DNA from: Ceratodon purpureus | Lineage: Eukaryota; Streptophyta; Bryopsida; Pseudoditrichales; Ditrichaceae | NCBI GenBank assembly: GCA_014871385.1 | Contig: CM026433.1 | Coordinates: 15,441,985-15,505,984, forward strand | DNA: 64,000 nucleotides | Direction: 5' to 3' | Part shown: positions 7,404 to 64,000 of the stretch, piece by piece | How the letters are laid out: every line of letters begins with the position of its first letter | Numbering within the stretch: the stretch's first letter is position 1 | Notes under the pieces: model-generated | What the model was told of the DNA's origin: nothing | Databases searched by the model: none | The model's input: only the letters and a program-made list of their open reading frames with translations | Program-made: the position numbers and the translations under genes

Positions 7404-8262
7404 TTAACCCCTAAAGTTCTGAGGGCATTTTTCATTAAAACTGCCTCAAAACAGCCCCTCTTCAAAGCAAGGGGGATTTTGCAAACTTTGGGTCTTTTTT
7501 AGTACATCAAACCGTAAGATCTTGTAGCTAACTTCTATGTTTACATGTCCACCAAATCTCATGCACTCATTCTTCACCAATTGCAAGATCATAACGTTCA
7601 AAGTAGAAAAACAAGTTTTTTTCCCCTGCAAAAAAAGGGGACAGTAGAGTTTTGAAGGCCCAAATAACCATTTTTTTGCATTATGGATTTTGGGGGTTTT
7701 GATGCACGTCAAAGAAGACTGAGTTAGCTAATTGTTCTAAGAAAATTATATTCAAAAAAATTGTGGAAAGTTGCCAAAAAAATCATTTTCCGCTAGGGGG
7801 TATACTGAAATTCACAAACAAAGGGCATTTTTGGACAATAAAAATAGCATATGAAAAAAAATTGGAGTAAAAATCCGAACGGTGGGAACATGCTCTACTG
7901 CCTTCTCTATACATAGAGATTTTTATTTTAAAAAAATATCAAAATCTCAATTTTTGGTGGAATTTCAAAGTTTCGTCTTTGGGCACATTTTGGTAGTTTT
8001 GGGCAGTTTTGGGCAGAATTTGCTGCATTCACTGTGGTTGGGAAAAATTCAGCAGCTGCCCAACGAGCAGCGTTTGACACTTAAACCTTCATAACTTTTG
8101 ATCCCGATGTCGGAATTGAAAAATAAAAATACCCACACGAAGATCTCCAAACGGCCCACCTTCAATAAAAAATTCAGAAAATCCTGATATAAATTGCATT
8201 CGTAGGTACATGCCCAAATTCAAAAAAAGCCCAAATGTGGCAGATTGTCCTTTAGGGGTTAA
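7404..8262 (+). mobile_element. TTAA-flanked non-autonomous element, subfamily A copy 1 (A1)
   Basis: The element is bounded by TTAA (7404-7407 and 8259-8262). Inside these are inverted ends CCCCTAAAG and CTTTAGGGG; the interior is 851 bp with no transposase ORF. It matches A2 (28.3 kb) and A3 (29.6 kb) almost throughout: the GCAAACTT/GGTCTTTTTTAGTACATC block, the AACCGTAAGATCTTGTAGC core near 7510, the repeated TTTTGGGCAG tract near 8000, and the end AATTGTCCTTTAGGGG or close variants. TTAA at both edges with C-rich ends is how piggyBac-type and some Kolobok-type elements look; the assignment is inference. Confidence 0.8.
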
Positions 8263-8560
8263 TACATTAATATTCTAATTTATATCAAGGTATAAATATT
8301 GTAGGTAGGAAAAATTTGCTATGTGGCCTGCCGAAAAGAGAAGCCATGCATTGCTTGTAGCAGCTCTAAAGACATTTGTTGTAAGTTCTTTGAATTTGAG
8401 AACCACCTTCACACCTCTCCTTAAGAAATTTGAAATCATATGAACAATACTTCTGCCATGCTCTTACACAATCTTGCGCACAGCCTTGCGTAACGAGTTG
8501 AGAAAAATTTGATAGGGCATGTCTTCAAGACTCCTAAAAATGTGCCTTGCCGAGTAACTC
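8263..8560. other. Short spacer without recognised genes
   Basis: Nothing recognised apart from the edges of the neighbouring elements. Confidence 0.4.
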
Positions 8561-8830
8561 TAAGAGCATCCCCAGTAAGGCCTGAACCGTAAACCTGTAA
8601 TCGGAAAGATGTAGAAAGACGTGAATTGCGGTTCAGGCCAAGCATGTATTCGAGCTTGTAAGTCTGTAATTTACAGGTCGAAACCTCATTTTGGAAGGTT
8701 TTTTGGGGCAAACCTGTAAATCTGTAAACGGTTCTGGAATGTTTTGCTTCTGAAAGGCACTCAGGTTTGGGAGAACGACGTTCTCATAATTAGAGGCTTA
8801 CAGGTTTACAGCTCACTGGGGATGCTCTAA
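8561..8830. mobile_element. TAA-flanked MITE (PIF/Harbinger Tourist-like)
   Basis: A 264-bp element (8564-8827) begins GAGCATCCCCAGT and ends with its inverse ACTGGGGATGCTC. It is flanked by direct TAA on both sides (8561-8563 and 8828-8830). A 3-bp TAA/TTA duplication is typical of Harbinger/Tourist elements. The interior repeats segments around ACCTGTAA and TTACAGGT. There is no coding capacity. Confidence 0.65.
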
Positions 8831-11800: not shown

Positions 11801-12882
11801 ACCCACTTTAAAGCTCGACACTATCTTTGATTTCTACAGATTTCAGCAGTGTCAGATGTATGTGCTCGGTAGACAGTCCTGGTTTTGGAGTAAGTGCTGG
11901 TTTGTGGGCATGGCTGATCTCTGAACACCGACACGGAAAATTTAACAAGTGTCAACTGGGTCAAGAGATCGTCAGCCGCAGTCTGACAAGTGGAATCTTT
12001 GGAGGCATGGAAGCTCGGAGTGGTGGATTTATGGATTCATGTGTCAACTAAGTTAAGTTACGGAAACTTAGCTATGTATATGTTCAAAATTAGATGATTT
12101 GGTGCGGCTGTTTACTGTGGATCCGAACATATATCGAAGCATATGTGTGCAAGCCATTGGATTTGGAAGAACAGTTCGTGCAACTTCGTCGTGTGCCAGT
12201 CAGCCAGCGTCTGATGGCGCTAATTTCGTTTCCGAAGGAATATCGTTCATAGATTCCCTTCGTCGAAGTTCAACACTGGTTGTGGACTGGCTCCTGAGTC
12301 CTGTGGGCTGGGAAGTGGGAACTGATCCGGGTGATGGCCCTTTGTACTGTAGAGAGCCAGGCGCGCGTCTTGTGTGTCCGGGTATCACACCTGGGACTGG
12401 TTTTTAATCCCCGATAGGTAAATGAATACATGAAGGAGTTAACCACTTTCTTCGTTTATACAGTACAGCATTTTTATTATGTCATTAATATTATGCTTTT
12501 CTGATTATTATTTGATTTTGACACAGGTGAATCGTTTTTTTAAACCCTGAAAAGTATATGGTTTAATATTTTGGGCCTTAATAGGGGTGATCGAGATAGC
12601 CTGAAGCACTGACAGCCAAGTAAACACAAACCTGGTCGCATGTTGTGGAGACAGGCTAGTATTGAACAGACCCCTATCCAATGTCAAACATATTGATCAC
12701 GGTGTTAGTAGCAGTGTACTCTGTTTCTGCAATGAACTTTATTTTCATCATGTGTCCCCATACAGACCAAATTGTCCATATTGATTCATGGAGAATTTTT
12801 GTAATAAATATTAATGACTTGATCACGCAATGCAGCCTTTGGGTCCTAGTGCAGTGAGAAGTTGAGAACTCCCTATTGCCAT
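8831..12882. other. Gene-poor spacer
   Basis: No gene was recognised. Visible features are A+T-rich sequence to about 10.5 kb, a 35-bp direct repeat at 10690-10836, and a less A+T-rich stretch at 11380-12410 containing several ORFs of 60-100 codons with no family resemblance. TGATCACTGATCACTGATCA repeats lie at 11405-11422. A decayed gene or transposon in 11.1-12.4 kb cannot be excluded. Confidence 0.4.
10690..10836 (+). repeat. Direct repeat of a CAATGTGATCCTTTTTGGGG motif
   Basis: TTAGCCC(T/C)(A/G)(A/G)CAATGTGATCCTTTTTGGGG followed by CTAATGTC occurs at about 10690-10723 and again at about 10800-10836. The surrounding sequence carries extra GGGGCTAA words. It may be part of an unrecognised repeat. 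Confidence 0.6.
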
Positions 12883-13308
12883 TAAGGTAGAAACACCTTA
12901 AACCGGGCGAATAAGAGATTCAGCATGGTTGTGGACCTCGTGTGTACTGTTTGTAATTTTTCCTGGATGGGGAAACAGGAGGGAGAGTGAATGCAAAAAT
13001 TTCCAGAATTAAATAGCAAAAATTGAATTTACTACAAATTTTTGAAGTCAAAAGTGTACATGACCTTAAAGTGATCAGTAGACTCTCCTTTTGTGGCGCT
13101 CACGCATGTAGCTAAAACCGTGCAAATAGAGTTAATGAACCATGAATCTATGAACCAACCACCTCCCTACACGTGTCCATATCGAGTCACTATTCATGAA
13201 CTATTTATGAAATTGCTGTGCACGCAATAAGGTTCATGCCATGGGCGGCACAGGGGCGGTCTACCCTGCGCTTCTGGGGGCCGCCCGGTTTAAGGTGTTT
13301 CTACCTTA
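12883..13308. mobile_element. TA-flanked MITE with 25-bp perfect terminal inverted repeats
   Basis: Arms at 12885-12909 and 13282-13306 are perfect inverted repeats beginning AGGTAGAAACACC. Direct TA dinucleotides flank them (12883-12884 and 13307-13308). The element is 422 bp with no transposase. A TA duplication suggests the Tc1/mariner superfamily, but the ends are not the classic Stowaway sequence. The ends share AGGTA with the MITE at 51.57 kb. Confidence 0.7.
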
Positions 13309-26934: not shown

Positions 26935-27505
26935 TTATTTTATGGATTTTGGAGGTTTTAGTGCATGACAAAGACGACTAAGTTAGCTAACCATGTAAAA
27001 CACTTTACACACAAAAAACAAGTGTAACATGTTGAAAGCAATATTTTTATTAAGTTGAATATACAAGAATGCTAATTCATATTTCTTTTCTAGAAATTCC
27101 GTATATCATAAAGTCCCAATTCAAACAATCAAAGTAAAGATTGATGTCCATCCATTAAGTGGAAAAAAGAAAAAACCTAAAAAAACAAATTTTCTAACTT
27201 TTATGAAGGAAAGAAGAAGTTTTTTTGGTACATTGACCAAAACAGTGAGAAAATTTTGATCTTTTGTGGAATGAACATTTTGTACGAAAAGAAGTTTTTT
27301 TTGAAATCTCAAAGATGTTGACATTAAGTTTTATTGGAAAAATAAAATTAATTAGCACGGCTGTCCAAATTGCCCACCAAACATTTAATTCCACTTTGGG
27401 TACCATATCCATTTTTATAATTGAAAATTATCTAAAATCGACATCACACTTACATGCCCAAACTTTCAAAAGCCCAAATGTGGACAATTGTTCTTTAGAG
27501 GTTAA
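26935..27505 (+). mobile_element. TTAA element, subfamily A, 5'-truncated copy (A4)
   Basis: Homology to A1-A3 begins near 26935 (TATGGATTTTGGAGGTTTTA, then a GCATGACAAAGACGACTAAG-type block). It ends in the subfamily terminus GGACAATTGTTCTTTAGAGG followed by TTAA (27502-27505). The 5' inverted end is absent and the 3' end has mutations in the conserved CTTTAGGGG, so this is an old copy. Confidence 0.6.
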
Positions 27506-28254: not shown

Positions 28255-29133
28255 TTAACCCCTAAAGTTCTGAAGGTATTTTTCATCAAAACTGCCTCAA
28301 AACAGCCCCTCTTCAAAGCAAGGTGGATTCTGCAAACTTGGGGTCTTTTTTAGTACATCTAACCATAAGATCTTGTAGCTAACTTCTATGTCTACATGTC
28401 CACCAAATCTCACACACTCATTCCTCACCAATTGCAAGATGATAATGTTCAAAGTAGAAAAACAAGTTTTTTTCCCTGCAGAAAAAGAGGACAGTAGAGT
28501 TTTGAAGGCCCAAAAAACCATTTTTTAAAGTAGATATGGAATGAATCTCTCCATAGTATTGTTACTAAGTGAGTTAGGTACATGTCCAAAAAATATCATA
28601 TTCAAAAAAGTAGTGGAAGGTTTCCAAAAAAAACATTTTCCGCTAGAGGGTATGCTGAAATTCACGTATAAAGGCCGTTTTTTGACAATAAAAATAGCTT
28701 ATGAAAAATTCTTGGATTGAAAATCCAAACGGTGGAAACATGCTCTACTGCCTTCTCTATACATAGAAATTTTAATTTTTGAAAAATATCAAAATCTCAA
28801 TTTTTGGTGGAATTTCAAAGTTTCGTCTTTGGGCAGATTTAGGCAGATTTGGGCAGATTTGGGCAGTTTTGGGCAGAATTTGCTGCATTCACAGTGGCTT
28901 TGAAAATTTCAGCAGTTGCCCAACAAGCAGCTTTTGACACTTAAACCCTCATAACTTTTGCATCGAGTGTCGGAATTGAAAAAAAAAAAAAAAAAAAAAA
29001 GACCCACACGTAGCTCTCGTTATAATCTACCTTCAATAAAATTTTCATAAAATCACGATTAAAATTGCAACTGTAGGTACATGCCCAAGTTTCAAAAACG
29101 CCCATTCTAGGACAATTGTCCTTTAGGGGTTAA
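28255..29133 (+). mobile_element. TTAA element, subfamily A copy 2 (A2)
   Basis: TTAA lies at 28255-28258 and 29130-29133. The interior of 871 bp begins CCCCTAAAG and ends CTTTAGGGG. It is close to A1 and A3 along its whole length and includes the core AACCATAAGATCTTGTAGC near 28363. An A-run of about 20 at 28980 is a local expansion. No ORF looks like a transposase. Confidence 0.8.
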
Positions 29134-29629
29134 ACAATTGCATGATTGAAATTTATATAAAATAAAATCACATGCAATATATCTGATAAGTTATGACCAA
29201 GTTGTATTGAATGACAAATCTTGTGTTCATTGAATTTATTTTGTGCAAATGAGAGTTAAAAAATTATATGAGGATACAATGTTAAGTATTTATACGTCTT
29301 AGACCCCATTGGATAAGACTATCTCAAAGCTTAAAATGAATGGAGAAAACCAAAATTTTATGCCTCGCATTTTTTGAATGTGCCAATGTGCTTTAATTAA
29401 GTTACAAAAACATTATATTTTTAAGATTTGATTCTATAAGCAAGTCACTCAAATTTTCTACGACCACAAAGAGCTAAACAAATAAACGGAATTTTGGTAT
29501 AAAGTAGAACAAACTATTTTTGTCTGGCAACAATTTTATATGAATGTACTTGTATCTAATTAGTTAGTAGCCAATCTAAAAGCCTCAGTCGAGAGAAAAA
29601 CTTTGGTCTTCGGAGGAGACCGACATGAA

Positions 29630-30424
29630 TTAACCCCTAAACGCCCAAAAGTGTTTTTCATCAAAACTGCCCAAAAACAGCCCCTCTTCAAAGCAAGGTG
29701 GATTTTGCAAACTTGGAAACTTAATTAGTACATCCAACCGTAAGATCTTGTAGCTAACTTCTATGTCTACATTTCTACCAAATCTTACACATTCATTCCT
29801 CACCAATTGCAAGATCGTAACGTTCATAGTTGAAAAACAAGTTTTTTTCCCTGCGCAAAAAGGGATCAGCAGAGTTTTGAAGGCCCAAATAACCATTTTT
29901 TTGCATTATGGATTTTGAGGGTTTTGATGCACGTCAAAGAAGACTAAGTTAGCTAATTGTGTTAAAAAAAACCATATTCAAAAAAGTTGTGGAAGGTTGC
30001 CCAAAAAAACATTTTCCGCTAGGGGATATACTGAAATTTACAAACAAAGGCCGTTTTTTGACAATAAAAATAGCATATGAAAAAGATTTGGATTGAAAAT
30101 CGGGACGGTAGGAATATGCTCTACTGCCTTCTCTATACACAGAAATTTTTATTTTTGAAAAATATCAAAATCTCAATTTTTGGTGGAATTTCAAAGTTTC
30201 GGCTTTGGGCAGATTTTAGCAGATTTTAGCAATTTTGGGCAGTTTTGGGCAGTTTTGGGCAGAATTTACTGCATTGACAGTAGCTGTGAGCTTGCCGGAA
30301 GTTTGGCTGAATGCAGCTTTTGACACTCAAAACCCCGTAACTTTTTTTAAGTATGTTAAAAAAAAATTAAAAAGCCCAAATTTTAAAAAAGCCCATTCCA
30401 GGACAATGGGCCTTTAGGGGTTAA
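29630..30424 (+). mobile_element. TTAA element, subfamily A copy 3 (A3)
   Basis: TTAA lies at 29630-29633 and 30421-30424. The interior is 787 bp, begins CCCCTAAACGCCC and ends GGGCCTTTAGGGG, so the inverted ends extend about 13 bp with one mismatch in the shared part. The core AACCGTAAGATCTTGTAGC is near 29738. It lies about 500 bp from A2 in the same orientation and is shortened in its right half relative to A1 and A2. Confidence 0.8.
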
Positions 30425-32880: not shown

Positions 32881-33200
32881 TTGACCCCTAAAGTCGAAAT
32901 CGACCCAATCACTATTAATCTGCCTGAAAGTTTTTATAAAAATTGGAACTTTGACTGAATATATCTCAAGATTTGTACAATCAAAATTGATAAAACTTGG
33001 AAAGAAGATTAATTGGATGGCTCTGAACAAGATCGTCCGGTTGGATTTCTTAACATCAAGTTTAATAAAAAATTGTGCAATAATTTTAGAAAAGGTCGTT
33101 TGGAAGTCACTATACACATGTGGTCAATTTTTACTTTAGAAGTTAAATTAGGTCTATATAGAGATATAGATCGACTGTGATTTGGTTAAACTAGGGGTCC
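32881..33200 (+). mobile_element. Short subfamily-D-like element (D2) just upstream of the C53 gene
   Basis: It begins TTGACCCCTAAAG and ends near CTAGGGGTCC. Bases 32895-33117 match, in inverse orientation, 47355-47595 of the longer D1 element; shared words include ATATATCTCAAGAT, GTGGCTCT-like sequence, and AACAAGATxxTxCxGTTGGATTT. The outer edges are diverged from TTAA, so the boundaries are approximate. Confidence 0.5.
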
Positions 33201-33203
33201 TGG

Positions 33204-33593: not shown

Positions 33594-36500
33594 ATGGACG
33601 CAGCTGCGGGAGGACCCGACGCGGCCTCGCTCCTGCCCATCGACATCGCCTACGCCAAGCTCGCAGGTCTGCCCCATCACCATGCCCACCTCTCATGCCG
33701 TCCACCTTCGGGACTCAATGCATGAATGAATGAATGAATGATTGACTGAATGAACGGTTGGTTGGTTTTGTGATTCGCTTCTCGCTTTGTGGGTGAGCAT
33801 GACCGGAGTGCAATTTGCGGATGGCAGATTGGCTGGTGGATCGCAAGAGGATTCCCGTGGACTGGCGGAAGAAGGTCGCGTCTCTGCGGGCCAGAATTGC
33901 TGCTGCTCTCGCCTCGCTGCCGCAGTTGGAGGACTCGTGGCTGCAGAGCTCTACTGCTGAGAGTGAGTGTGATCGCGTTGTAGTGTGATCGTTGGGCTTT
34001 TTGTGTTATTGGAGGTTATAGTGTGGCTGGGTTGCCTGAGGTCGAATTGATTGAGTTGCGATGAAAGCTCTCTCTGTTTGTGTGTGTGTGCTGGCGCTCT
34101 GTAATCGGCTGAACAGAGGAGTGAGAATTAGGGTTTTTGCAAGGTCGTTTGAGGGTTTAGTTTTTGCTAACAGGGTCTGGTTGATGGGCGCAGGCACTGG
34201 CTACTTGGAAGCGAAGCGTATACGAGAATTGTTGGTGGAAGCCAATCCTGAGTCTCGTAACTTTTTTGGTCGCCTTTCTGGAGTGGCGGTGAGTTGCTGA
34301 TGATGTTTTGTCTTTGATCGATTAGTCTCTGGCTTTGATTCACTTGATGGTCACAAAATTTCTATGTGAGAATGTTACTTATCTCATGTGGGTGGCAATG
34401 TGTAACAGGGTGAATGGGATGGAATTGTTCGGGCTTACGAGAAGGAGCTGTTGCATCTCGGAGAAGCAGCACAGATTATGGTGCATTACACAGACTATGA
34501 GATGTGTGTTTCGGTGAACCTTCATTCTCTTTGACCCTTGAGATTTGGTCTAGGTCTTTATTCAAGTCTGAAAGGGGTTTTGAGTGATTGATTTATCTGT
34601 TTGGCGTATTTCCTTACAATAGAACGGACATGCCTGACGTTGTTGCGGGTGTGTTGTGTTACAAAGTCCAAGTCAGAAGAAGGAGATTGCCAAAGTGCAA
34701 CAGCATCTGACTGATATGGAGAAAAAAGAAGCAGAGTATAAGCGGAATGCAGCGGCCGCAGCCACTAGGTATCAACAGGCTTGTCAAGAGCTTGGCATCA
34801 AGGTCAGGATCTTTGGCAAGACAATTGTCTCTTTAAACGGTCTGGCTGAAATTTAGCATATCGTTAGCATCGTCGTATGTCCTCACGCTCCTTATTTTTT
34901 TGTTTCTTCACCGTTGTAGGGAAACGATGTCAAAGCAGAGTTGAAGGCCCTTGGCAAGTCACTTCCGGCTGTTTTCATGAAGGTTGTGGAAGCCATCTGT
35001 AATGACAAAGTGGGAGAACCAATGGATTTGTATCAAGCTATGGTATCGTATGCACATTCAGGGCCTGAGGTGGAGCATTGTACCCAGCTACTCGGCATTA
35101 AATCCACAATGCACATGATTATTCAAGTTCTTGGATCTGTTGATTGTTGTTCGTTGTTCCTTGTGTGGTGATTCACATGTGGTATGTGTGTCAGGAAGAG
35201 CAGAGGCCTAATTTACCAACACTTCAAGAGCTTCGCGATCATCCACCTAGCTTTGATCAAGCAAAGGAAAGCAATGTAGATGACAATCTCCAGTCTATTG
35301 AGCATAACAGCAACACGGACGGAACTGGGCTTGAAGGTGCTAATGATTCGATCGACTGGGGTGTGGACGCTTCGATTGGTCAGGATGGTGCTGACCAAAT
35401 AGACTGGGGTCTGGATGCTTCGAGTGGTCACGATGGCACCGGCCAAATAGACTGGGGCGTTGGTGTGGAAAGTATAGACGGGGCTGCAGAAAGTGGTTCA
35501 AATGGTATCGACTGGAGTATTGGTGCGGTAGCAGATGATCCTACTTCAGTGGATGAAAGCAAGTTGGAAACTGACATCATTTGGGATATTGGACCTCTGA
35601 CACCGCAGGCAGAGACGAGTCCTGAATCTGATTTTGTTCTTCTTCAGCAAGACGAGGGTCTTGAAACTGGTGGTGAAATAAATTGGGATATAGATTTAGA
35701 TGAGAGCGGTGTGGATGGAGCAGATCGCACCGATAGCTTGTCGCATGAATTGCCCAGCACTGCATCAGAAACAACGGGAGTAGGGCGCTTCCTAGAGACT
35801 GACTACAGAAACATGCTACTTAATGACTTATTCGAGGTATCAATCCAGCGTGCGACAGATTCCGTGTTCTCAATTGTAGTTCTTGTGCGTTTGGTGGGGT
35901 AATTAAGAGATGCTCCTTTCAATTGGTTGGGCACTAATTATATAATGGTCTATTGCAGTTAAAAGCTTTTGTGAAGCAAAGGGTGGAGGAGCTGGAGAGG
36001 CAAGAAACGGCAGCACTTCAAAACCAGGTGCAGGCAATGGCACCAGCAGCCTGCTTCCAGCATGGATCGGATGCACTGCTGGACATGGCCTCTCACATCA
36101 CTGCTGCTATCGATTTGCTTACAGCACAGAAGACAAGGGATCTGTGCTTGCTTGTAACATCCACTAGGTACACATAAGCTTCGAAGACTGGCTCAGCTGC
36201 ATTAAGTGTCTCTTGCCGCAATTATAAAGAAAGCCGTTGAGGAACATACTTCTGATGACATATTGCTTGCAGGTTTTTAGATAGGTTGCACTTGTCGTTG
36301 GTTGCCAAGAAAGAGAGTGAGACGAAGCTACTCGCAAGCCTCAGAGACCTCAGCCAAAAGCGAACCGAACTCAGGAACTCCTTGACGCTTTTGTGGCCAA
36401 AACAGGTATGCTCGTTTTTAAATGACTTAAATAACGATAGTATCCACGTTATAGGTCTTCTTATGGCAATCATCGAATTTGTATGGTAAGTGTATCTAAC

Positions 36501-41276: not shown

Positions 41277-42213
41277 TTAACCCCTAAAGGTTCAAGCCGT
41301 TTTTGGACCTCCAAAACCAAAACTGTGATTTTTGACAACCTTATAGAAGCTGAAGTATGATTCTTAAATTTTTCATTTTTTGGTACATCCAACCGTAAGA
41401 TCTTGAACCTAACTACCTGCACTAATACCATGTCAAATTTCAATGGTTGGATCTTTACCATTTGTGAGATTATAACATTCAAAGTTTACTGTTTTTTTTT
41501 TTTTTTTTGGCTTTGCGCGAAAGGCATACTCTAAATGGTGCCAAGGGAGACTTGATTATTGTTACCTCAAACATTTTGCTCATATTTTTTCCACGTAGGT
41601 AACTAAGTTGAGCACCTCCGTGCAAAATTTTAGAGTCTCATTACACTTTTTTGGCCTTCATGCAAATTATTTTCCACAAGAAGGTACAAAAACCACAATA
41701 TGGTAAAACTGAAATGACCTGAAATGCTTTTGGTTTTTTACAAAAGTGAACGGTTAAAAGTTACGTCCATGAGTTCTTGAATTATTAGAAAAAATAAATT
41801 TGAAAAAATCCTAAATCTCAAGTTTTGACAAATTTTAAAAGAAAAAAACGTAAAATTACCAAAAACTGTGAAGGTTGTTTCTGTGATTTTTGGAGGCTGC
41901 TCTTATAAAATTGGTAAGCTTTTTGACTTAGGCCACTTTGGATTTTGAATAGTGACTTGGTTATGAACACATTTCAAAAAAAAAAAATCTAAAAAAACCT
42001 AATTTTAATTGCCCGTTTTGGACTTGAAATCTAAAATTTGTAGATGAAGGTTCTAAAAGTGAAATTTGGCTTCAAAATTTTTACCACATACATTTTACCG
42101 TATAAGCAGCATCCAATAAAAGTTTTAGGCAAAAATATTACTTTTAACCCCTTCATCTAGGCTGCCCGAAATAGCGAGAGCCATTTTGGATTTCCAGAAC
42201 CTTTAGGGGTTAA
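41277..42213 (+). mobile_element. TTAA element, subfamily B copy 1 (B1)
   Basis: TTAA lies at 41277-41280 and 42210-42213. The inverted ends are CCCCTAAAGGTTC and GAACCTTTAGGGG (13 bp perfect). The interior is 929 bp with no transposase ORF. The core ACATCCAACCGTAAGATCTT is at about 41389. The right half matches B2 (63.6 kb, inverse). A second internal TTAACCCC word at about 42145 is also present in B2. Confidence 0.82.
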
Positions 42214-43398: not shown

Positions 43399-44569
43399 TT
43401 AACCCCTAAATGCCCTTGAGACCCGTTTGGTGTTGCAGCACTTTTGGGCAGGCTATTGTAAGGTTTCAGAATTTTATTATTTTCTGAAATTTTTACTCCA
43501 TATAGCTTTCAACGATAGCTTTCCAATGGCGCAAATTTCAAAGCATTCGGAGTTACGATGCAAAAGTTATGAGTTTTAGAAGAATCTGCTCTAAATCCAG
43601 GCACCCAATACCCAATGGAAATCACCCATTTTCTGCCCAAGTTGCCCGTCATTCAATGGGGCAGAAAGTGACAAGACGATTTCTCAAAAGGTGGGCACTT
43701 GCAAAATAATGGGTCCAATATTTTTACATCCATATACATTTGTGACGGTTTTCATCCAATTAAAAATATTCATCTAACTAACCATTTCCATCCAAGAAGG
43801 TTGCTGATTTTTTTCATTCAAATAAAAATTATCATCCAGAGTGTAATTATCATCCAAAATATAATTTCCATCCATATAAAACATTTCATTCAATATTTTA
43901 ATTTCATCCAAACAAAATGAATTTCATCCATTATGTATGATGTGGCAAGGGGTCCATCCACAGTACCCCCTTTTACCAAAACTGCCCTTTGAAATAAAAG
44001 GAAAATATACAATTTACACTTCAAAAAATTCTAGAAATTTGATATGTACTCCGATTGCATTAAAAAAATTGTGGTTCTTTTCCTCATTGACTTCAACATA
44101 TCTACCGTTCATATTTCCAATTGGACATCTTCGACTACCCTTTAAGTAGTTTTAATTTTGGAGAATGTAAGGTAATTTCAGCACAACCCCTTTCACAAAA
44201 TCAAGAATTTGTTTGCCTTTCTAAGCCTATATGAGGCTCAAATTTTGTGAGCATATACCTAAGTTCCATACCTAAAGGAATTGATGATCCTCTATGGATA
44301 AAATGTGTTTTTGGGCATCAAAACTTAGGTATACTCTCAGGGCAATGTCAAAAAAACTTTTACAGTGACTTTAAATGTTATAATCTCGCAATCTGTACAG
44401 TGGATTGTCTTCAAAATTGGTATACAACTTTTTGAATAAGTTAGTTATAAGATCTTATGGTTAAATATTCAATTTGATAATTTAATTTATAAATTATTAG
44501 ATTTTTATCAGTAGTGGTATGTTTTTGGCAGTTTTGGCTCTAAATATATCAAGGGCCTTTAGGGGTTAA
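43399..44569 (+). mobile_element. TTAA element, subfamily C copy 1 (C1)
   Basis: TTAA lies at 43399-43402 and 44566-44569. The ends CCCCTAAATGCCCTTGA and TCAAGGGCCTTTAGGGG are inverted repeats of 17 bp with one mismatch. The interior is 1163 bp without a transposase. The core is present in inverse orientation at about 44440-44465 (TATAAGATCTTATGGTTAAA). A central array of about 11 CATCCAA-like words occupies 43750-43960. Confidence 0.82.
43750..43960 (+). repeat. CATCCAA-like periodic motif array inside C1
   Basis: CATCCAA or one-base variants (CATCTAA, CATTCAA, CATCCAG, CATCCAT) recur about 11 times at intervals of roughly 15-25 nt, usually preceded by T-runs. The same array (as TGGATGAAAA) is kept in C2 at 63185-63410 although the intervening sequence differs. 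This iteron-like spacing suggests binding sites; the function is inference. Confidence 0.7.
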
Positions 44570-47114: not shown

Positions 47115-48190
47115 TTAATCCCTAAAGCATCAACTCAACAATTTTGGTATGATTTAGGGTCCAGTTAGGCTCCCTATGAGTCAAATCTTAGTGGATGTGG
47201 CTCTAACTTTGGCACAACATGGGAAATTATCATATTTTTCTAACAAGACCAAATTTTACTTTCATCACGCCCGTAGTTGAGAAATAATTTGTGTTTAAAG
47301 GTCAAAATTCAATCCAGGGCAGCTGGAGCAGGTTTATGGCCGATGGGAGTGGTGTACCAAATCTGTGACAGTCTACAGTCACTTCCAAATGATCCTTTCA
47401 GAAAATCGTTTCACAATTTTTTTTAAAACTTGATTTTGAAAAATCCAACTGTATAATCTTGTTTAGAGCCACCCAATTCTTGTACGTATCAAATTCTGTA
47501 ATTTTTGACCGTACGGATCTTGAGATATATTTAGCCAAAGTTCCAAGCTTTATAAAAACTGTCAGAGAGATCGACAGTGATTGGATCACCTTTGTCACCC
47601 ATTTTTCCTTCACCATTTTCTCCTCCTAAACCACAGTATATGCTGTAAAATTCATATCTATTTTGGATTTCTTTCCTCTACAATTTCTTTTCCATACAAA
47701 TGCATGTACATATCGTTCGGATTTCAAAAAATAGATGATCTTCTTAGGGATTTGTAGTGTGGAAAAAGAACCAGTGTATATGCATTTCATTTGACTCCCG
47801 TCACTGGAAATGTGGTTTTTCAATGCTTTTGTGTCTTGTATTGTCTTCATTTTTTTTTGTGCATACTCCCACTCACATTAGAACCCAAAAATGAAGAGCC
47901 TCCAACCACACGATCTCAAAACATTGGTTGTTTCACTCTTCGAATGGTGGCTGTCGCTGCCAGGTAGTACCAAAAAAAACTTTTCTCTCAAGTTCAAACC
48001 TTACGAACTCCCAAACGGTGAGGAGTTACAATCTAAAATTTTGTGTACACATATATGTACAAGTTAGGTACTAGATCATACGGTTAGATTCTTTAAAATA
48101 CGTTTGAATTTGCATAATTCTACCTTGAACTAAAACAGGGCAGAATTGAGGCACAATTTGGGATTTTATGGCCAAAAACCTAGGCGTTAA
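47115..48190 (+). mobile_element. TTAA element, subfamily D copy 1 (D1)
   Basis: It is bounded by TTAA at 47115-47118 (followed by TCCCTAAAG) and 48187-48190 (preceded by CCTAGGCG), so the ends are diverged from CCCCTAAAG. The interior is 1068 bp with no transposase ORF. Core-like sequence occurs twice: CCAACTGTATAATCTTGTTT at about 47446 and, inverted, GATCATACGGTTAGATT near 48075. Homology to D2 spans 47355-47595. Confidence 0.6.
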
Positions 48191-52619: not shown

Positions 52620-52735
52620 TGAGGGTGAAGCTGTGGAAGGTCAGGGTGAGGCTGCGGAGGAGCTTCGGCAAGGGGTCAGGGTGAGGCTGCAGACGGTGCG
52701 GAGGGTCAGGGTGAGGCTATAGAAGGTCAGGGTGA
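52620..52735 (+). repeat. Minisatellite GGTCAGGGTGAGGCT
   Basis: The words GGTCAGGGTGAG(GCT) recur four times with variable 10-25 nt linkers (AGACGGTGCGGA, ATAGAA and others). Non-coding. Confidence 0.6.
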
Positions 52736-55662: not shown

Positions 55663-58600
55663 TTACCAAAAGATTACAAGACGGTTAGCAGGGATGGAGT
55701 TCCAAGCAACATTCAGACCAGTTCTAATACAAAGAATACCATTCTGAGTCCAAGCAGCGTCAAGTTCATCTAAAGCCTTTTGGGCCTTCTCGGGGGTTTT
55801 AGCCCGGTTATGTCTTCGTTTTGTCTTGATCCAGTCGATGCGACCATATTCAAGTAGTGAATCCCAAGTGTAGTCTTGGATTCGTCTGATTGACCAGGCA
55901 GTCCCTTCAAAGACGGCCTCATTGCGTAGTATCCAAGAGCCCCAGAGGACAATGCCCCGAAGAAGGTTCCAGATACGAATGGTACCCATCCTGCGGAGTC
56001 TGATCCTTCTACCGAAGATGCACTGTTCGAGTGAGAAGGTCTTGGCCGGTCCAATGTTTTGTTTTCCCTTCAGGAGCCAGTGAATGATCGTGAAGGCGAA
56101 GGTCCACAGCTTCTTGGACTGGGGGCACTGATAGAAGCGGTGAGAGTATGTTTCGAGAGAGTTGTCCGTGCAGACTGGGCAGCTGGGGTCGGCTCTGGGG
56201 TTGAATTTGTGTCGCCAGGTGTTGGTGGCAACAGCCTGATGCCAAATGGACCAAACAAAAGCTGCTTCCTTCTGCGAGCGACATTTCCAGTTAGTTTTCC
56301 AGTCAAGTGGAAACGTGATTGTTGCTTCGTGGCGCCATTTCCTGTCAATTGAGGTCTGGAGCTGCTGTCTGTTCGATAGAAGTTCTCGCCCAACTTTAGC
56401 ACTAAACATGGTGAGAGGGAGACTGTTCTTCCAGCTCCAAAGTTGCGGGTCGAAGTGTGGCAGCCTCCATACCACTCCATAGTAAACATAAGAGGGGGTT
56501 TTGATAGACTTGCCTACAGGGGCAACTCTGATGATTCTGATCGTACCTTGCCAGCGTCGGACAATGTGTTCCAGTCTTTGAGCTACATCGAGAATGAGGC
56601 TTCGAGATTGTGGGCCGACGGAGTACACTGCGTGACCAAAGGGAAGGGTCGGCAGGCAATTCGGGTCCTGAATGCTGGCTGGTTGCCAAATTCTGCTGGT
56701 TTGGACCAAGAAGAATGGAGTGTCGTCGTCACTGGGTTCAAAACCCCCAATCCATGATCCCTGTCGAAGGAGGATGGGGTCCGTTGAGAGCGCTCTTCCA
56801 AACTCTTGCTCTGTCTTCCTGCAAAGTGATTCAACACTAAGGGATTTTGCGTCGGTTAGGTTGAATTCAGCTTGAAGGGTTTCTATCGGTTTGGGGCGTT
56901 GCAAGGCCATATCCCAGAGATCTGCAACTTTCTGAAGTCCTCTATTGTATAGGGAGAGGGCATTTTGTCGGGAAAGGTTGAGGTCACCACCTTTGTAATT
57001 CAGACCCCACCATAGAGAGACCTCAGATGCTTCCGCCGAGTCAGCACGAGGAGATTCGCGCAGGTTCTTGATCATTCTTTTCCAGGCGAGTTGAACCTTG
57101 GACCAGGTTTTTGATCCTGCAACTGGAGAGTGGTTGTCAACTAGTCCCCAGAGGGGATGGCATGGCCATCGGTTTTGCTTCTCCGGGCTGGACCTCCAGA
57201 GTTTGTTTCTAAGGAACAATTGCAGGTTTGAAGCTCCCGGTAAATATGCGGCAAGCACCCATTTGCAAAGGAGGCTGCAGGTCGCTTCTTGAGGATCGAT
57301 GAGGAAAAGGCCTCCAACCGGTTTCTTTGCACAGCAGTCAAACCAATTAACACGAGTTCTTGCAGAATGCTCCGATCCGGCCCACAGGTAATTTCTCAGA
57401 AGAGCCTTAACTCTGTGGATGGCCTTAACTGACCCGTGCCAGATTGATAAAAAGTACCACAACGAGGATAGAAGAACCTGCTTTACAATCATTGCTCTGC
57501 CTGCTAATGACAATTTGGTTGTGGACCAGTACTCCAGCTTGGATCGAATTCGAGAGATTAGGAATTGATCAATGTCAGCTGTGTCAAGCTTGATTCCGAA
57601 AGGCGTGCCCAGGAGTTTCGAAAGCTCGTTTTCATCTGCCCAAGTCCAGCCAATGTTGGTAATCCAAGCAGGTCTAGGGTGCGTGCTGCACCAGCAGGCA
57701 GAGCTTTTGCTCCAATTAATTTCAAGCCTGGTTGCAGCCTTGAAAGTATTCAACAAATCTACCAGGTGGAGAATGGTTCCTGGGTCACTTACTTCGAGGG
57801 AAATGGATGTATCGTCGGCAAACTGCGATATGAGTTGAGACTGCTGAGAGTTAGGAATCCGAATTCCTTGTATCTCTCCTTGTTGCTGAGCTGACTTGAG
57901 GAGAGAGTTAAGGGATTCAGCGACTAAGATGAACAATAGAGGCGCCAAAGGGCAGCCTTGCCGTACTCCCCTGCAAATGTCGAATGAGGCTGTCTTCTGT
58001 CGGTTGACATTAACACAGGCCGAAGCTCCCGTGAATAACAGCTTAGAGAGGGCGATGTAATAGGGCCCCAGGCCCATTTTCTCCATACATTTGAAAAGGA
58101 AGTGCCAGCTAACCTTATCAAAGGCCTTTCGAAAATCGACCTTTAGGAATAGAAGAGGTTGCTTGGTTCTTCGTGCTGTGTCAATGGTCTCATGAGCCAC
58201 GAACACATTGTCGAGGATGAAGCGCTTTGGCACAAAGGCAGTTTGATCAGGGCTAATCAATTCTGCAAGTAAGGGAGTTAACCTCATTTGGAGAGCTTTC
58301 GCCAGGATTTTGTAGGCCGAATTGAGGAGTGTAATCGGTCTCTGATTGCCTAGGTCTTCTTGCGGTCCTGTTTTGGGAATTAGAGAGATGGCACCTTGAG
58401 TCATTTGCTTGGGCAATCGTTCCGCTTGGAGAGCCTGGTTGACCATTCGGAGATAATCTGGGGCAAGCAGGTTCCAATGGTGGGTATAGAATACTATACT
58501 CACTCCATCTGGGCCGAGAGCTTTATCTCGTGCAAGAGCCTTTGCTGCGGTCCTTAGTTCTTCGACAGTGAGGTCGCAGTTGAGTTGATCTCTCATTCTT

Positions 58601-59958
58601 TCGGTGACTCTCTGGTTGACACAGCTCAAAACTCTGTCGGTGGCTTGTTCATCAGGAGAGGAGGGAGGAGCGTAAAGCTGCTGGTAATAGCTGCGGCAGA
58701 TTTCTTGAAGCTGCTGTTGCTCACATTGAATCTGCCCCTTAGAGTCTAGAAGTTTGGTGATGCTATGGGATTTTGGTTTTTCTCGAACAACATTAAAGAA
58801 GTCTTTGTTGCACGCATCCCCTTTGTCTCTCCACTTTACCCGTGCACGAATTCTTTGACCTTCAGCTTTGGATCTTTCAAGTTCAGATAACTTTTCCCGG
58901 AGCGTAGCCACTTCTAGCTGAAGGGGGAAAGAACAGGGGTCGGAGTGGAGTCTTGCCTGAGCCGAAGAAAGTTCCTGCTGCAGTTCAACCTCAAGGGCTC
59001 TGGTTGAGAGAGCTTTTTGTTTGGAGTAGTTTCGGTAGAAGTGAAGGACTTTTCTAAGCTTCGAATAGAAGGAGAGCCCTTCTGGGAGAGCACTCCATAT
59101 TCGCTGGACCTCTGCAGTTGTCTCGGTAATGTAAGATACATTCATTTTCCAAGAGGGGCGCAGTCGCTGTCCACCTGTGATCGTCAATTTGATACACACC
59201 GGCAGATGATCCGAGAGTGCACACCCCCCATGAATGAAATAAGAGTCAATTTGGACAGAGCACCTGCTTGGATCTGGTTTAGGAGTATAAAACCGATCCA
59301 GGCGAGCTAGGATGCGTTCACCATGGGTGCGACCGTTGTCCCATGAAAAGCGGGGTCCCTGGGTGGAGGAGAACCGGTCCTCGAGATTTAAAGCGGACTT
59401 CAAGCTGTTCCAAATGAACCGCTCTTGGTCGCCCAGAAGGCGTCCACAGGCTGAGGATTTGTCACGGCTGCTCTCCACCATGTTGAAATCACCGCCCAGA
59501 ATCCAGCTGTGGTGGAGGGGAAGGGCTTCAGGTACGCTATTCCATAGTGTTCGGCGTTGCTGGGCGTCGTTGGGGCTGTAGGCATTGGCGATTCCAATCT
59601 CGCTACCTGAGGCGGTTTTGAGTGTGAGCCAGAGAATCCGACCATGGTTAATGCTACCTGAGTTGACTACATGTCCAATGAGTTTACTGAGAATTAAAGT
59701 GGCTGTCCCACCGCAGCCAGCTCCAGCTTCATTTCGGTGATGACCATATCCAGCAGAGGCTTCTGTGTAGTAGTAATCTGCCCTGTTGTTAAGTTGGCGG
59801 CCTAGTTCACTTGCCTTGGTTCCTGTCAGCTTATGTTCTTGAATGAGGAAGATGTCTGGGGCGGGTTGGAGGGATTGGATATAGTTGCGCAGCCTACGTA
59901 CTTTGTCCGGGTCGTTTAATCCCCGGACGTTGAGTGTGTAGATGGACAGCTGCATCAT
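55663..59958 (-). CDS. LINE ORF2: endonuclease and reverse transcriptase
   Basis: The frame is open from 60042, but the start preferred here is the ATG at 59958, overlapping the ORF1 stop, because the endonuclease begins right after it (MMQLSIYTLNVRGLND); this gives 1431 aa. In that numbering, the APE-type endonuclease shows IQEHK (catalytic Glu about 41), GGDFNM (about 155-160) and SDH (about 249-251). The reverse transcriptase shows LGPDGVS, LIPKTG, RPITLLNSAYKILAK, FLKVDFRKAFDKVSW, RGVRQGCPLAPLLF and the catalytic FADD (about 713-716). A zinc-binding zf-RVT region (CPVCTDNSLETYSHRFYQC) lies near the C-terminus. No RNase H domain was noticed. There are no stops or frameshifts, so the protein is potentially active in target-primed reverse transcription. 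Confidence 0.95.
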   Translation of the reverse strand: MMQLSIYTLNVRGLNDPDKVRRLRNYIQSLQPAPDIFLIQEHKLTGTKASELGRQLNNRADYYYTEASAGYGHHRNEAGAGCGGTATLILSKLIGHVVNSGSINHGRILWLTLKTASGSEIGIANAYSPNDAQQRRTLWNSVPEALPLHHSWILGGDFNMVESSRDKSSACGRLLGDQERFIWNSLKSALNLEDRFSSTQGPRFSWDNGRTHGERILARLDRFYTPKPDPSRCSVQIDSYFIHGGCALSDHLPVCIKLTITGGQRLRPSWKMNVSYITETTAEVQRIWSALPEGLSFYSKLRKVLHFYRNYSKQKALSTRALEVELQQELSSAQARLHSDPCSFPLQLEVATLREKLSELERSKAEGQRIRARVKWRDKGDACNKDFFNVVREKPKSHSITKLLDSKGQIQCEQQQLQEICRSYYQQLYAPPSSPDEQATDRVLSCVNQRVTERMRDQLNCDLTVEELRTAAKALARDKALGPDGVSIVFYTHHWNLLAPDYLRMVNQALQAERLPKQMTQGAISLIPKTGPQEDLGNQRPITLLNSAYKILAKALQMRLTPLLAELISPDQTAFVPKRFILDNVFVAHETIDTARRTKQPLLFLKVDFRKAFDKVSWHFLFKCMEKMGLGPYYIALSKLLFTGASACVNVNRQKTASFDICRGVRQGCPLAPLLFILVAESLNSLLKSAQQQGEIQGIRIPNSQQSQLISQFADDTSISLEVSDPGTILHLVDLLNTFKAATRLEINWSKSSACWCSTHPRPAWITNIGWTWADENELSKLLGTPFGIKLDTADIDQFLISRIRSKLEYWSTTKLSLAGRAMIVKQVLLSSLWYFLSIWHGSVKAIHRVKALLRNYLWAGSEHSARTRVNWFDCCAKKPVGGLFLIDPQEATCSLLCKWVLAAYLPGASNLQLFLRNKLWRSSPEKQNRWPCHPLWGLVDNHSPVAGSKTWSKVQLAWKRMIKNLRESPRADSAEASEVSLWWGLNYKGGDLNLSRQNALSLYNRGLQKVADLWDMALQRPKPIETLQAEFNLTDAKSLSVESLCRKTEQEFGRALSTDPILLRQGSWIGGFEPSDDDTPFFLVQTSRIWQPASIQDPNCLPTLPFGHAVYSVGPQSRSLILDVAQRLEHIVRRWQGTIRIIRVAPVGKSIKTPSYVYYGVVWRLPHFDPQLWSWKNSLPLTMFSAKVGRELLSNRQQLQTSIDRKWRHEATITFPLDWKTNWKCRSQKEAAFVWSIWHQAVATNTWRHKFNPRADPSCPVCTDNSLETYSHRFYQCPQSKKLWTFAFTIIHWLLKGKQNIGPAKTFSLEQCIFGRRIRLRRMGTIRIWNLLRGIVLWGSWILRNEAVFEGTAWSIRRIQDYTWDSLLEYGRIDWIKTKRRHNRAKTPEKAQKALDELDAAWTQNGILCIRTGLNVAWNSIPANRLVIFW

Positions 59959-61838
59959 TATTGACGATTGGGGAAAGAGGCCGGGGCAGCTGAGGCGGTG
60001 GGTGCCGCTGCAGCTTCGAGACGATTGGAGAGAGCTTGCCACTTCGCTTTATAGGATGCTGCTAGGCGAATAGAGCTGGCCCGGGAGCTTGATGTTTGAC
60101 TTGAGCTGGGGGAGGCTGATCCTGAAGAAGCTGTGTCCTGTTGTGAGAGGAGGGATGAGCGGATTGCTATATGTCCATTCCCTTGGGGCGGTGTTGTGTC
60201 AGGGATGAGCCGACTAGCTTCAATTGCAGAGTCTGCTCGTGGGGAGTCTATAACTTGTGTTGGAAAAGCGTCAAGGTGGAGGGGGGAGGCAGAGCTGTTG
60301 CTCTGGGCAGTATGCCGTTCCCGATTCCTGATTTCCTCAATGGTCCGAAAGGCCTCGGCAGGTGGGGCATCAAGAAGGATTCGCAAGTTTCCCCCTACAT
60401 CCTGAATGACGAATTGGTTGCTCGGTAAGTCTTCTGGAGATGATAATTCTAGGCGTTTTGAAGTGCCATTGCTTTTCTCTGGGGAGCTGAATTGAGAGTT
60501 GGATCCTGCACCTCGCTTTGCACCGGGATTCCTCCCATACCGTCCCAGGGACCAGGTCATAGGAGCACCGGCTTGCTGATCAGGAGGTTCTTCAAGCATG
60601 GCCGCAACCTGTTCAGATGTACATACCTGTATTGGTTGTTGCAGATTAACAGGTGGAGAGGGTTGCGTTGGTTCGGGGCCTCTTGGAGGAGGAGGCGGGG
60701 GCAGGGGCTCGGGATCCCTAGGTGGTTTCCGTGATCTCCTGTTGCGAACCACCGTGAATCCTTGAGAGTCTGTCTCCCCTGGGGATTGATGTGGAACGTC
60801 TATTGGGGGATCAGCTGGTGCTGGACGGGGTGCCAAGTTGGTGGCTGGGGTCCTTGGGATTGGGTTGAGTTCATCTCGCTGCCGAGGTGGATTGCTGGGG
60901 TAGTCAGGCCGCTCAGGGCTCCAAGCACCGTTAAACTTTAGCTCTAGACAATCTGCCACTTTGTGGCTGAGTGAATGGCAGAACCTGCAGCGTACGGGGG
61001 CGTGCTCATAATTGAGAATCAGCAGGTTCCTCTTCCCTCCTATGCCGAAGACTTCTAGTGCTGAAGGCCATCCTTGGGTTATGTCCAAGCCAATGCAGAA
61101 ACGGGGATCACGCAGAAATTTATTCTGGGGGTCTGCCTGGTAGACTGGGCCTAAAGAAGCTGCGAGCAGACCTTCAACAGGTTTAAATTCGTGTGGAATT
61201 TTAACGAGGCTGATCCAAGTGGGGAGTTTCAAACCTGAGGGGAAATCTGGGTTGAAGTTAGGCTCCCATTCCTGGTAAGCACATTGTCCCCACGGTGTGT
61301 TGTGGGGGGTGAGAGCAAGTAACCGCCAAGTGGTAATCACGTTCGAAGTTGTGAGGAAGATGAAGCCGCGTCCCATGTCCATCTTGAGAGAAACGCCATT
61401 GTAACCTAGCTGCTGGTTGAGAAGGTGTATCCAGTCCACCAATGCGCTCTGAGGGATCTTCCTGCCGAAGAAGCTGGCGATGACTGTGACTTCCTTCAAT
61501 CGAGCTGCTTCCGCTTCCAGCACTGCTGGGTCTAGCTGGGGTCCTGCGGAAAGTTGTCGCATCAAGAGTCCATGATAGATCCTGTTGAAGCCGCTGGGCA
61601 GCTGCTCGTTGGGTTCTGGTTGGTACGGGTTGAACCTGCCCCTGTCGCCAATGCGATAGCATAGAATAGGACAGGCTAGAGATGATTCTGAAACTGCAAT
61701 TTTCGGGGGAAGTACCTGACGATGCGGGGGTGGAGCATTGTTGCCTTGTCCGGATCTGGCCCTGTGTTGAGGTCCTGAGCTTCCACGCGCCCCAGCTCCT
61801 TGCTCGCCTCGTGCGAGCACAGCCTTGTACGAGTCCAT
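59958..61838 (-). CDS. LINE ORF1: RNA-binding protein with CCHC zinc knuckle
   Basis: 626 aa. The N-terminus is Arg/Gly/Pro-rich. Residues about 110-260 resemble the DUF4283-type domain common in plant L1 ORF1 proteins (TVIASFFGRK, MGRGFIFLTTSNVITTWRLL). A zinc knuckle CRFCHSLSHKVADC (C284, C287, H292, C297; CX2CX4HX4C) follows. The C-terminal half is Pro/Ser-rich and probably disordered. The family role is binding of element RNA in a ribonucleoprotein. The stop codon TAA (59960-59958) shares its last A with the ORF2 ATG. Confidence 0.9.
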   Translation of the reverse strand: MDSYKAVLARGEQGAGARGSSGPQHRARSGQGNNAPPPHRQVLPPKIAVSESSLACPILCYRIGDRGRFNPYQPEPNEQLPSGFNRIYHGLLMRQLSAGPQLDPAVLEAEAARLKEVTVIASFFGRKIPQSALVDWIHLLNQQLGYNGVSLKMDMGRGFIFLTTSNVITTWRLLALTPHNTPWGQCAYQEWEPNFNPDFPSGLKLPTWISLVKIPHEFKPVEGLLAASLGPVYQADPQNKFLRDPRFCIGLDITQGWPSALEVFGIGGKRNLLILNYEHAPVRCRFCHSLSHKVADCLELKFNGAWSPERPDYPSNPPRQRDELNPIPRTPATNLAPRPAPADPPIDVPHQSPGETDSQGFTVVRNRRSRKPPRDPEPLPPPPPPRGPEPTQPSPPVNLQQPIQVCTSEQVAAMLEEPPDQQAGAPMTWSLGRYGRNPGAKRGAGSNSQFSSPEKSNGTSKRLELSSPEDLPSNQFVIQDVGGNLRILLDAPPAEAFRTIEEIRNRERHTAQSNSSASPLHLDAFPTQVIDSPRADSAIEASRLIPDTTPPQGNGHIAIRSSLLSQQDTASSGSASPSSSQTSSSRASSIRLAASYKAKWQALSNRLEAAAAPTASAAPASFPNRQ

Positions 61839-62072
61839 GTAGTCGGTCCAAAGTGAGTGCTAATTCGTCATTAGGGTTTGCTAACCCTAATTAGAGTGCG
61901 CGTTTCCGAGGAACCTGCTACAACTAGAGCTAAGTTCGATTCACGAAGTACACGCCCATCGATAGGAATCAGAGAGGAACCATCAGATGGTTAGCATCGC
62001 GGAGCGCCATCGCTCGCCGCCTCCCTGCTCTCGCCACCGATCCGTTTGAGCATAAATTTTCTCAGGCAGCAA
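61839..62072 (-). promoter_or_regulatory. LINE 5' UTR with presumed internal promoter
   Basis: These 234 bp lie between the target duplication and the ORF1 ATG. The first part is G+C-rich (GGCGGCGAGCGATGGCGCTC on the minus strand), as in many plant LINE 5' ends. Promoter function is inferred from family behaviour. Confidence 0.5.
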
Positions 62073-62087
62073 CTTCAACCTTATTAT

Positions 62088-62839
62088 GATTGTGACACTG
62101 TTTTCAGTATTCACAGTGAAAACACCCCGAAGAATCCAAGATTGCCAAAAATCTGGCTAAGTACACTATTTCCAAAATAGCGGCCATTGAATAGAAAAAA
62201 GGCTTTGGCACCAACCACAGCATTCCCATACGCTCTTCACAAATACCAAGACAGACAGAAAATGGGTTTTGGAGGGGAATTTGGTGCAATATCAGAGTTT
62301 ATGATTCAAATTTTAAACAATTTATTTTCCCACATTCTTTGATCATGCATTTTGCAGGGATTTAGGGTGGGTGGCAAAATTAGCTGCTCCAAAGGGAGGC
62401 TGCTCCAAAAGGGGAAAGTCCAGACACATATTGATATGGTGATGAGAAATCAAGCCAATCTCAATGATCATTGATTCACTGATAATGCAACGTGGTAACA
62501 TATGGCACAGGCCCCAATGTATTGTGATACAATGTCACAATGTGGAGCGTTTGCCCCTATTTTAGCAGAGATATTGGCCTATCAGCCATTGCCTGCAGCC
62601 TGAGCTATTCCTTCAAGCAATAAGTAATAAAAAATATTCAAAGAGCAAAGGCGAAAATTCTACAGTATTTGTAAATTCAGCTAGTTGCTTGTCTACCAAA
62701 ATAAGTATTGTTGGTCTTGTAAATTTCTTGGATGATTTTTTGTAATTTATTTATTTTGTAATTTCGTTGCGGATGAAAAGATACACTATCTCATACAACC
62801 ACAAGGAAAATGCTTTGAAGAAAAAAAATTGAAAGTCTT
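62088..62839. other. Spacer right of the LINE
   Basis: Continuation of the pre-insertion locus. No gene recognised. Confidence 0.4.
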
Positions 62840-63572
62840 AATTTGTTATTTGTATAGCAAAGTTTTGGTGCCCAAAAAGTATACATTGCAAACACATTTG
62901 ACCTATACAAGGTCATCAATTCATCTTGGTGTGGAAATTAGGTCTGTGTTCAAAAAGTTTGAATCTCATACAAGCTTCAGAAAGGGAAAGAATCATTGAT
63001 TTTCTGAAAAGAGGTGTTCTGAAATTGCCATACATTCTCCAAAATTACCAAAAGAGCAATCTAAACATGTCCAATTAGAAATCCAAACACTAAATATGTT
63101 GGAGTAAAATTCAAAAAAGTAAATTTCACTGTAATTTTGATGTGCACTTTTGAAATAATGGGTTGTGGAGATGAACCCCTTGCCACATCATAGTTATTGA
63201 ATGAAAAATCTATAGTCCCGATGAAAAATAAAGATTAGATGTAATATTTTATGTAGATGAAAAATGAATTTTGGATGAAAACTAAATTTCTGGATGATGA
63301 TTTTTATTTGGATGAAAAAATTCACCAACTTCTTTAGATGGAACCGGTTGGTTAGATGAAAGTATTTATGAGATGAAAACTCTCATGAATGTGTATGGAT
63401 GAAAAAATATTGGACCCATCATTTTGCCCTGTCACTTTCTGCCCATGTGAATAACATGCAACTTGACCAGAAAGTGGGAGATTTTGATTGCTTATTGGCT
63501 GCCCTGATTTAAAGCGAATTCTTGTTAAATGCATCACTTTTGCATCGTAACTCCAAATGCTATGAAATTTAA
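62840..63572 (-). mobile_element. TTAA element, subfamily C, partial copy (C2) interrupted by B2
   Basis: Inverse to C1. It shares the ATGATGTGGCAAGGGGT block (63180-63200), the TGGATGAAAA array (63185-63410), TTTTGGAGAATGTA, and GGAGTTACGATGCAAAAG (about 63540-63555). The left end near 62840 lacks the inverted terminus. At 63569 the homology is broken by element B2, and the rest presumably continues beyond the window. Confidence 0.65.
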
Positions 63573-64000
63573 CCCCTAACTATCCCTAAAACCCAAAATG
63601 GGTTTTTGCACTTTCGGGCAGTCCATATGGAGGGGTTAAAAGTAATATTTTTTTTCAAGATTTTTACTGGATGCTTCCTTTACGGTAAGGTCTATGTAGT
63701 AAAAATTTTGAAGCCAAATTCCAATTTTAGAACCTTCATCTAGAAATTTTAGGTTTCAAGTCCAAAACGGGCAGTCTAAATTTAGGTCTTTTTACAAAAA
63801 CAAAAATTGAAATATGTTCATAACCAAATTACTATACAAATTCCATAGTGACCCAAGTCAAAAAATTTACCAATTTTACAAGGGCAGCCTCCAAAACTTA
63901 CAAAGACAAGCTTTAAAGTTTTTAGTAATTTTTGAATTTTTCCTTTCAAAATTTGTCAAATTCGAGATATTTGAATTTTTGAATTTTTTTTTCTTCTGAA
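63569..64000 (-). mobile_element. TTAA element, subfamily B copy 2 (B2), cut by the window end
   Basis: It begins TTAACCCCTAACTATCCC at 63569. On the minus strand it matches the right half of B1, including the internal TTTAACCCCT word (about 63634-63643), ACTGCCCGAAA, AAAATTTTGAAGCC-type and GGAGGCTGCCCTT-type words. It is inserted in subfamily C sequence at the point equivalent to 43531 in C1. The other end is outside the window. Confidence 0.7.

Follow-up and report, generated by a model that had tools for sequence, protein, structure and literature searches.

The window analysed here, meaning the whole stretch of 64,000 bases at 15441985-15505984 on contig C13 of the Ceratodon purpureus genome (362.5 Mb, 151 contigs), contains a series of short elements that are bounded by TTAA and have matching inverted ends. 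The question raised by this locus is to which superfamily these elements belong and which enzyme could have moved them. They are almost certainly non-autonomous (MITE-type) piggyBac elements, probably mobilised in trans by the transposases of dispersed autonomous elements of 4.6-5.9 kb.

Elements of the window and their ends

Direct reading of the window placed TTAA at both edges of all six full elements (Table 1), at the coordinates first given. For five of these (starting at 7404, 28255, 29630, 41277 and 43399), both the coordinates and the TTAA edges of the original prediction are thereby upheld. Clustering by blastn yielded four families, {7404, 28255, 29630}, {41277}, {43399} and {47115}, in line with the claim of at least four subfamilies. 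The four partial or truncated copies noted near 26.9, 32.9, 62.8 and 63.6 kb are present, with refined positions. Together the four families occupy 7,055 of the 64,000 bases (11.0%, against the roughly 10% anticipated). The element at 47115-48190 had been described as a diverged one. Its ends do deviate from the canonical sequence at a few bases, but it does not stand alone: it belongs to a family whose other sampled copies, which had been chosen via the canonical 13-mer, are approximately 87% identical to it and carry canonical ends.

Table 1 Members of the four TTAA-bounded families in the 64,000-base window.
Feature	Position	Length	Remarks
Family 1 element, complete, non-autonomous	7404..8262	859 bp	TTAA at both edges
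Family 1 copy, truncated	26940..27505		Fragment of the interior, 26940-26990, plus right end 27451-27505 (minus strand, TTAACCTCTAAAG)
Family 1 element, complete, non-autonomous	28255..29133	879 bp	TTAA at both edges
Family 1 element, complete, non-autonomous	29630..30424	795 bp	Sits in a dispersed host repeat
Family 4 copy, truncated	32881..33121		Left end TTGACCCCTAAAG at 32881; family match 32902-33121
Family 2 element, complete, non-autonomous	41277..42213	937 bp	
Family 3 element, complete, non-autonomous	43399..44569	1171 bp	
Family 4 element, complete	47115..48190	1076 bp	End bases mutated
Family 3 copy, partial	62852..63570		Matches 62852-63047 and 63163-63570
Family 2 copy, partial	63589..63996		At the window end

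The inverted ends of the window elements have the form CCCCTAAAG...CTTTAGGGG, with TTAA outside, and are thus short inverted ends starting with CCC. Allowing up to one mismatch, the window has 13 occurrences of the 13-base end TTAACCCCTAAAG where 0.08 would be expected (mean of 100 dinucleotide shuffles, maximum 2), which rules out a chance origin of the ends. The left ends of the elements at 29630 and 43399 depart from the consensus at the 13th base. Genome-wide, the exact end was found 5,516 times (2,742 + 2,774) and its reversed control 16 times (9 + 7), which bears out the suggestion that the family may be abundant in this genome. The window holds eight exact ends in 64 kb, equivalent to 125 per Mb, whereas the genome averages 15 per Mb. 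At roughly eight times that density the window is a dense spot, and its 11% should not be projected onto the genome.

When the family 1 end was sought without requiring TTAA, 1,019 occurrences were obtained in the genome and nine for the control. Among the 100 of these ends that were listed, all on contig C1 and counted by eye, exact TTAA precedes 96, and the remaining four are preceded by CTTT, CTAG, TCAA and CTAA (ends with G immediately ahead of these four bases fell outside the search pattern). A search with the element at 28255 gave 3,388 first-look candidates. Forty were scored, the element itself among them; the others, spread across many contigs, align with it along almost their whole length at 89-98% identity. 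Many copies of the window families are only 80-93% identical.

Two unrelated features were seen in the same window. A LINE with long open frames occupies 55663-61859 on the minus strand; its 1,461-aa frame carries endonuclease, reverse transcriptase and zf-RVT domains (PF03372, PF00078, PF13966) and is preceded by a 633-aa frame with a DUF4283 match below the family cut-off. An open frame at 35144-35902 on the plus strand matches CDK5RAP3 (PF05600) and is probably an exon. Elsewhere, at C9:11659137-11661295, lies a cluster of MIR160-like hairpins, two of them above the family cut-off. MIR160 is a land-plant microRNA family; the genome search gave ten matches, two above cut-off, and the same search of 14 well-known control genomes gave none.

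Transposases and autonomous elements

No transposase was found in the window by tblastn with 30 transposase domains from the same genome (no match at E<=0.01). The original prediction of a family that has no transposase thus holds for the window but not for the genome. A profile search with PF13843, the piggyBac transposase domain, returned 998 genomic candidates, and all 116 that were scored lie above the cut-off; the control search of 14 well-known genomes gave no match. Counted by eye, 93 of the 116 have no stop inside the match and 23 do. The scored copy nearest to the window, 76 kb upstream, carries two stops. Contamination was rejected as a source, the 116 scored transposases being spread over every contig from C1 to C13, with one on C53.

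Two side observations concern the distribution of these genes. Contig C6 (110.5 Mb, 30% of the genome, likely a sex chromosome) carries only 19 of the 116 scored transposases (binomial p = 8e-4), a count made by eye on the best-scoring copies only, 116 of 998 candidates. One review describes a 360-Mb C. purpureus genome with U and V sex chromosomes of >100 Mb each, together ~30% (PMC8000587). Two equal-scoring transposase copies, at C1:26682207 and C1:26687522, lie 5.3 kb apart in the same orientation and are perhaps head-to-tail elements.

A search for longer elements with the same ends and a DDE transposase, as originally proposed, was successful, and the elements found carry PF13843. In the 5,337-bp element L009, perfect TTAACCCCTAAAG ends enclose the transposase copy L038. 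Its frame of 1,023 codons (stop-to-stop) matches PF13843 at E=4.4e-80 and no other Pfam family. Comparison with the PDB gave two matches at E<=0.01, both piggyBac structures: Trichoplusia ni piggyBac (6x67, E 3.6e-29) and piggyBat (9c0f, 2.2e-25), to which the TIDE, DN and GVD..DQ motifs could be aligned. The three expected aspartates, which in piggyBac form the catalytic triad, are conserved without exception in the 12 domains aligned. With a PF13843 transposase between identical ends, the superfamily is almost certainly piggyBac; of the two types originally suggested, piggyBac or Kolobok, the former stands and the latter is not needed.

The transposase frames, taken from stop to stop, run from approximately 500 to 1,070 codons, many being near 1,000. 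A C-terminal C..C...C..C motif is present in 19 of 27 open frames; of the eight without that spacing, a stop interrupts L033, and several more have Cys-rich tails of another kind. Sequence identity in the N-terminal part is 0.50-0.58 before alignment column 180 and 0.22-0.31 over columns 180-600. The N-terminal part of the transposase frame of L009 (1438-4506, minus strand) also contains an in-frame tandem repeat (GMGVGGA-like).

The sequence outside the transposase gene was read on both sides in 16 copies, including L038 inside L009. Paired TTAACCC-type ends surround 11 of the 16, at distances of 4,637 to 5,871 bp; for some of the copies, up to two mismatches to the 12-base end TTAACCCCTAAA were allowed. 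The end sequence differs by transposase lineage, with TTAACCCCTAAAG, TTAACCCCTAATTG, TTAACCCCTGAGCG and TTAACCCCCTAAC as its forms. The exceptions are L051 and L053, with one TTAACCC end and none, respectively, within the span covered, and L090, L091 and L092 (on C1, C5 and C6), with one end each within 6.1 kb. These last three lie in unlike flanks and become homologous precisely from the TTAA onwards, with 98-99% identity across 3.2-5.0 kb; identity falls to 82-94% in the remainder of L092, and the homology of L090 continues to the end of the stretch compared. An indel of 262 bases separates L090 from L091, which are nearly identical.

Families 1 and 2 clearly, and family 3 weakly, share subterminal sequence with autonomous copies. 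In family 1, 51 to 209 bp of one end are common to the carriers of transposases L038, L046 and L047 (76-96% identity). The last 209 bp of 7404-8262 match the end of the L047-carrying element (L065) at 81% identity, the last 208 bp of 28255-29133 match that of the autonomous L009 at 76%, and the last 51 bp of 29630-30424 are 96% identical to the autonomous L009 and L061. For family 2 (41277), the first 396 bp match, at 79% identity, the element end that lies past transposase L051 (L073). The match of family 3 (43399) is a weak one, 69% identity over its last 132 bp (E 7e-6) with the end by transposase L048. Family 4 (47115) had no clear subterminal match among the transposase flanks compared.

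In piggyBac transposition, the enzyme recognises sequence at and just inside the termini, releases the element by cutting at its ends, and inserts it at TTAA. By the same route, a transposase expressed from an autonomous element would bind the terminal and subterminal sequence of a miniature and cut at its ends, and integration at a TTAA would leave one TTAA on either side. On the strength of shared termini and subterminal sequence, the transposases described above are the probable agents that move the window miniatures.

Insertion sites, selection and age

The proposed comparison of filled and empty sites was carried out on paralogs rather than orthologs, and the difference was the element plus one TTAA. 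The empty paralogs may never have been filled, and would then say nothing of seamless excision with restored TTAA. The left flank of the element at 29630 is a dispersed repeat with 30 genome matches, itself included. Five of the 29 others were read, and all five are empty, with a single TTAA followed by the right flank. Two of them (L095, L096) align gap-free across the site over 141 and 136 bases, two (L094, L097) show a short gap or two, at least a few bases past it, and one (L098) has several gaps from directly after the TTAA. For L015, a family 2 insertion of the same family as 41277, ten paralogs were read from the 40 scored matches of its host repeat (itself included), and all ten are empty. 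The TTAA is exact in seven and has one substitution in three; in one of the ten paralogs (L083) a short stretch is locally duplicated at that point.

The host repeat at 29591-29629 and beyond 30424 (L094-L098) contains the inverted motif GGTCTTCGGAGGAGACC, and 29 further genome matches to its end were scored. The host repeat of L015 (L079-L087, L008) is present in high copy, with 380 candidates, 40 of which were scored at 97-100% identity.

Selection on the transposase was estimated from 13 open frames, most pairs of which are saturated at synonymous sites. When only pairs with dS < 1.5 were kept, the whole frame gave a median dN/dS of 0.23 (16 of 78 pairs, range 0.16-0.59). In the catalytic region the median was 0.11 (17 of 78 pairs, from 0.06 to 0.38), and in the N-terminal part it was 0.53 (28 of 77 pairs). 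A median of 0.14 over all 78 pairs was discarded, since it included the saturated pairs. The catalytic region is under purifying selection and the N-terminal part under little constraint, a pattern that is clear only for the catalytic part. The closest pair, L041 and L045, has a dS of 0.022 and a dN/dS of 0.59.

In an unrooted tree, 30 domains from this genome are set apart from two animal ones with 98/97 support and fall into about ten deep lineages, several on long branches. With only two outsiders and such long branches, the tree is no guide to vertical descent versus horizontal transfer. In IMG/VR, 115 stretches matched a pattern made for the transposase domain (alignment A1), but not one was confirmed, so that this search yielded no relatives.

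Alternatives and relation to known systems

Elements of the Kolobok superfamily also duplicate TTAA, which is the point in their favour. That the window elements are Kolobok is nevertheless very improbable, given that PF13843 is the sole Pfam match of L009 and that both of its PDB matches at E<=0.01 are piggyBac. PIF/Harbinger (Tourist-like) MITEs, common in plants, make a 3-bp TWA duplication, and a TTA or TAA duplication might have been misread as TTAA. A filled/empty pair alone cannot separate the two, because it fits either a 4-base TTAA duplication or a 3-base one with asymmetric ends. The decision comes from elsewhere: the ends are symmetric about TTAA, the fourth base is constant (the full TTAA before 96 of the 100 listed ends), and the transposase-bearing elements with these ends are piggyBac. 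The duplication is thus the 4-base TTAA, and a PIF/Harbinger origin can be set aside as extremely improbable.

The remaining alternatives touch on parts of the interpretation. Family 4, and perhaps family 3, might depend on another TTAA-specific transposase, with ends that are merely convergent. Such a division of labour would account for the missing subterminal match of family 4, but it is unlikely, as its 13-base ends with TTAA are identical to those of the other families and outer flanks were read from only 16 of at least 116 transposase copies. It is also conceivable, though rather doubtful, that the elements are dead relics of an old burst with no recent movement. The 80-93% identity of many copies and the stops in 23 of 116 transposases would suit such an age; against it stand the transposase copies from three contigs with 98-99% identity across 3.2-5.0 kb, the dS of 0.022 between L041 and L045, and the miniature pair at 98% identity. 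The verdict is that the autonomous piggyBac partners were recently mobile; movement may be continuing today. The balance leans slightly towards a broader proposal, that C. purpureus is host to a large, diverse and recently active resident piggyBac clade, in which the transposases form about ten deep lineages and certain of these have miniatures of their own.

The mechanism and the superfamily are already known; the host is unusual. In land plants piggyBac has rarely been more than a name in lists. It is included among angiosperm MITE superfamilies (PMC10004981) and plant DNA superfamilies (PMC10794571), is said to have been isolated from 'insects, fungi and plants' (PMC10813416), and accounts for 1,230 annotated fragments in a fern genome (PMC6890710). 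A 2022 review of land-plant transposons gives six DNA-transposon superfamilies, and the word piggyBac is absent from its text (PMC9033089). Among the open-licence papers listed, none reports piggyBac elements in a moss by its title or the opening of its abstract, and an earlier report is possible elsewhere; both text matches in a Niphotrichum paper are to 'piggybacking', not to the transposon. Annotation pipelines built on the usual plant superfamilies may label such elements 'unknown'. With the moss elements, the spread and silencing of piggyBac in plants can be studied in a natural host, and their transposases, having evolved in plant nuclei, are possibly of use as tools for seamless excision. 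If the broader proposal is true, mosses would be a native reservoir of plant-adapted piggyBac systems.

Animals have piggyBac-derived MITEs. The window elements resemble these and their angiosperm counterparts in being short, in lacking a transposase, in their TTAA and in family-specific subterminal sequence, and differ from them in that transposase-bearing partners are present in the same plant genome. With the piggyBac superfamily as represented by T. ni piggyBac (PDB 6x67/6x68) and piggyBat (9c0f), they share the TTAA duplication and short inverted ends starting with CCC, and the autonomous partners have the DDE_Tnp_1_7 domain, the three aligned aspartates and a C-terminal Cys-rich tail. 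One account defines the superfamily by TTAA and a 'CCYT' end motif (PMC10175614). Teratorn, the piggyBac-herpesvirus composite of medaka, has the TTAA in common with the moss elements, whose ends start with CCCC and fit 'CCYT' loosely. The autonomous moss elements are larger, at 4.6-5.9 kb compared with about 2.5 kb for piggyBac (PMC10813416), and their frames extend to 1,070 codons from stop to stop compared with the 594 aa of the 6x67 chain. Unlike the piggyBac proteins compared, they have a long N-terminal part that is mostly poorly conserved.
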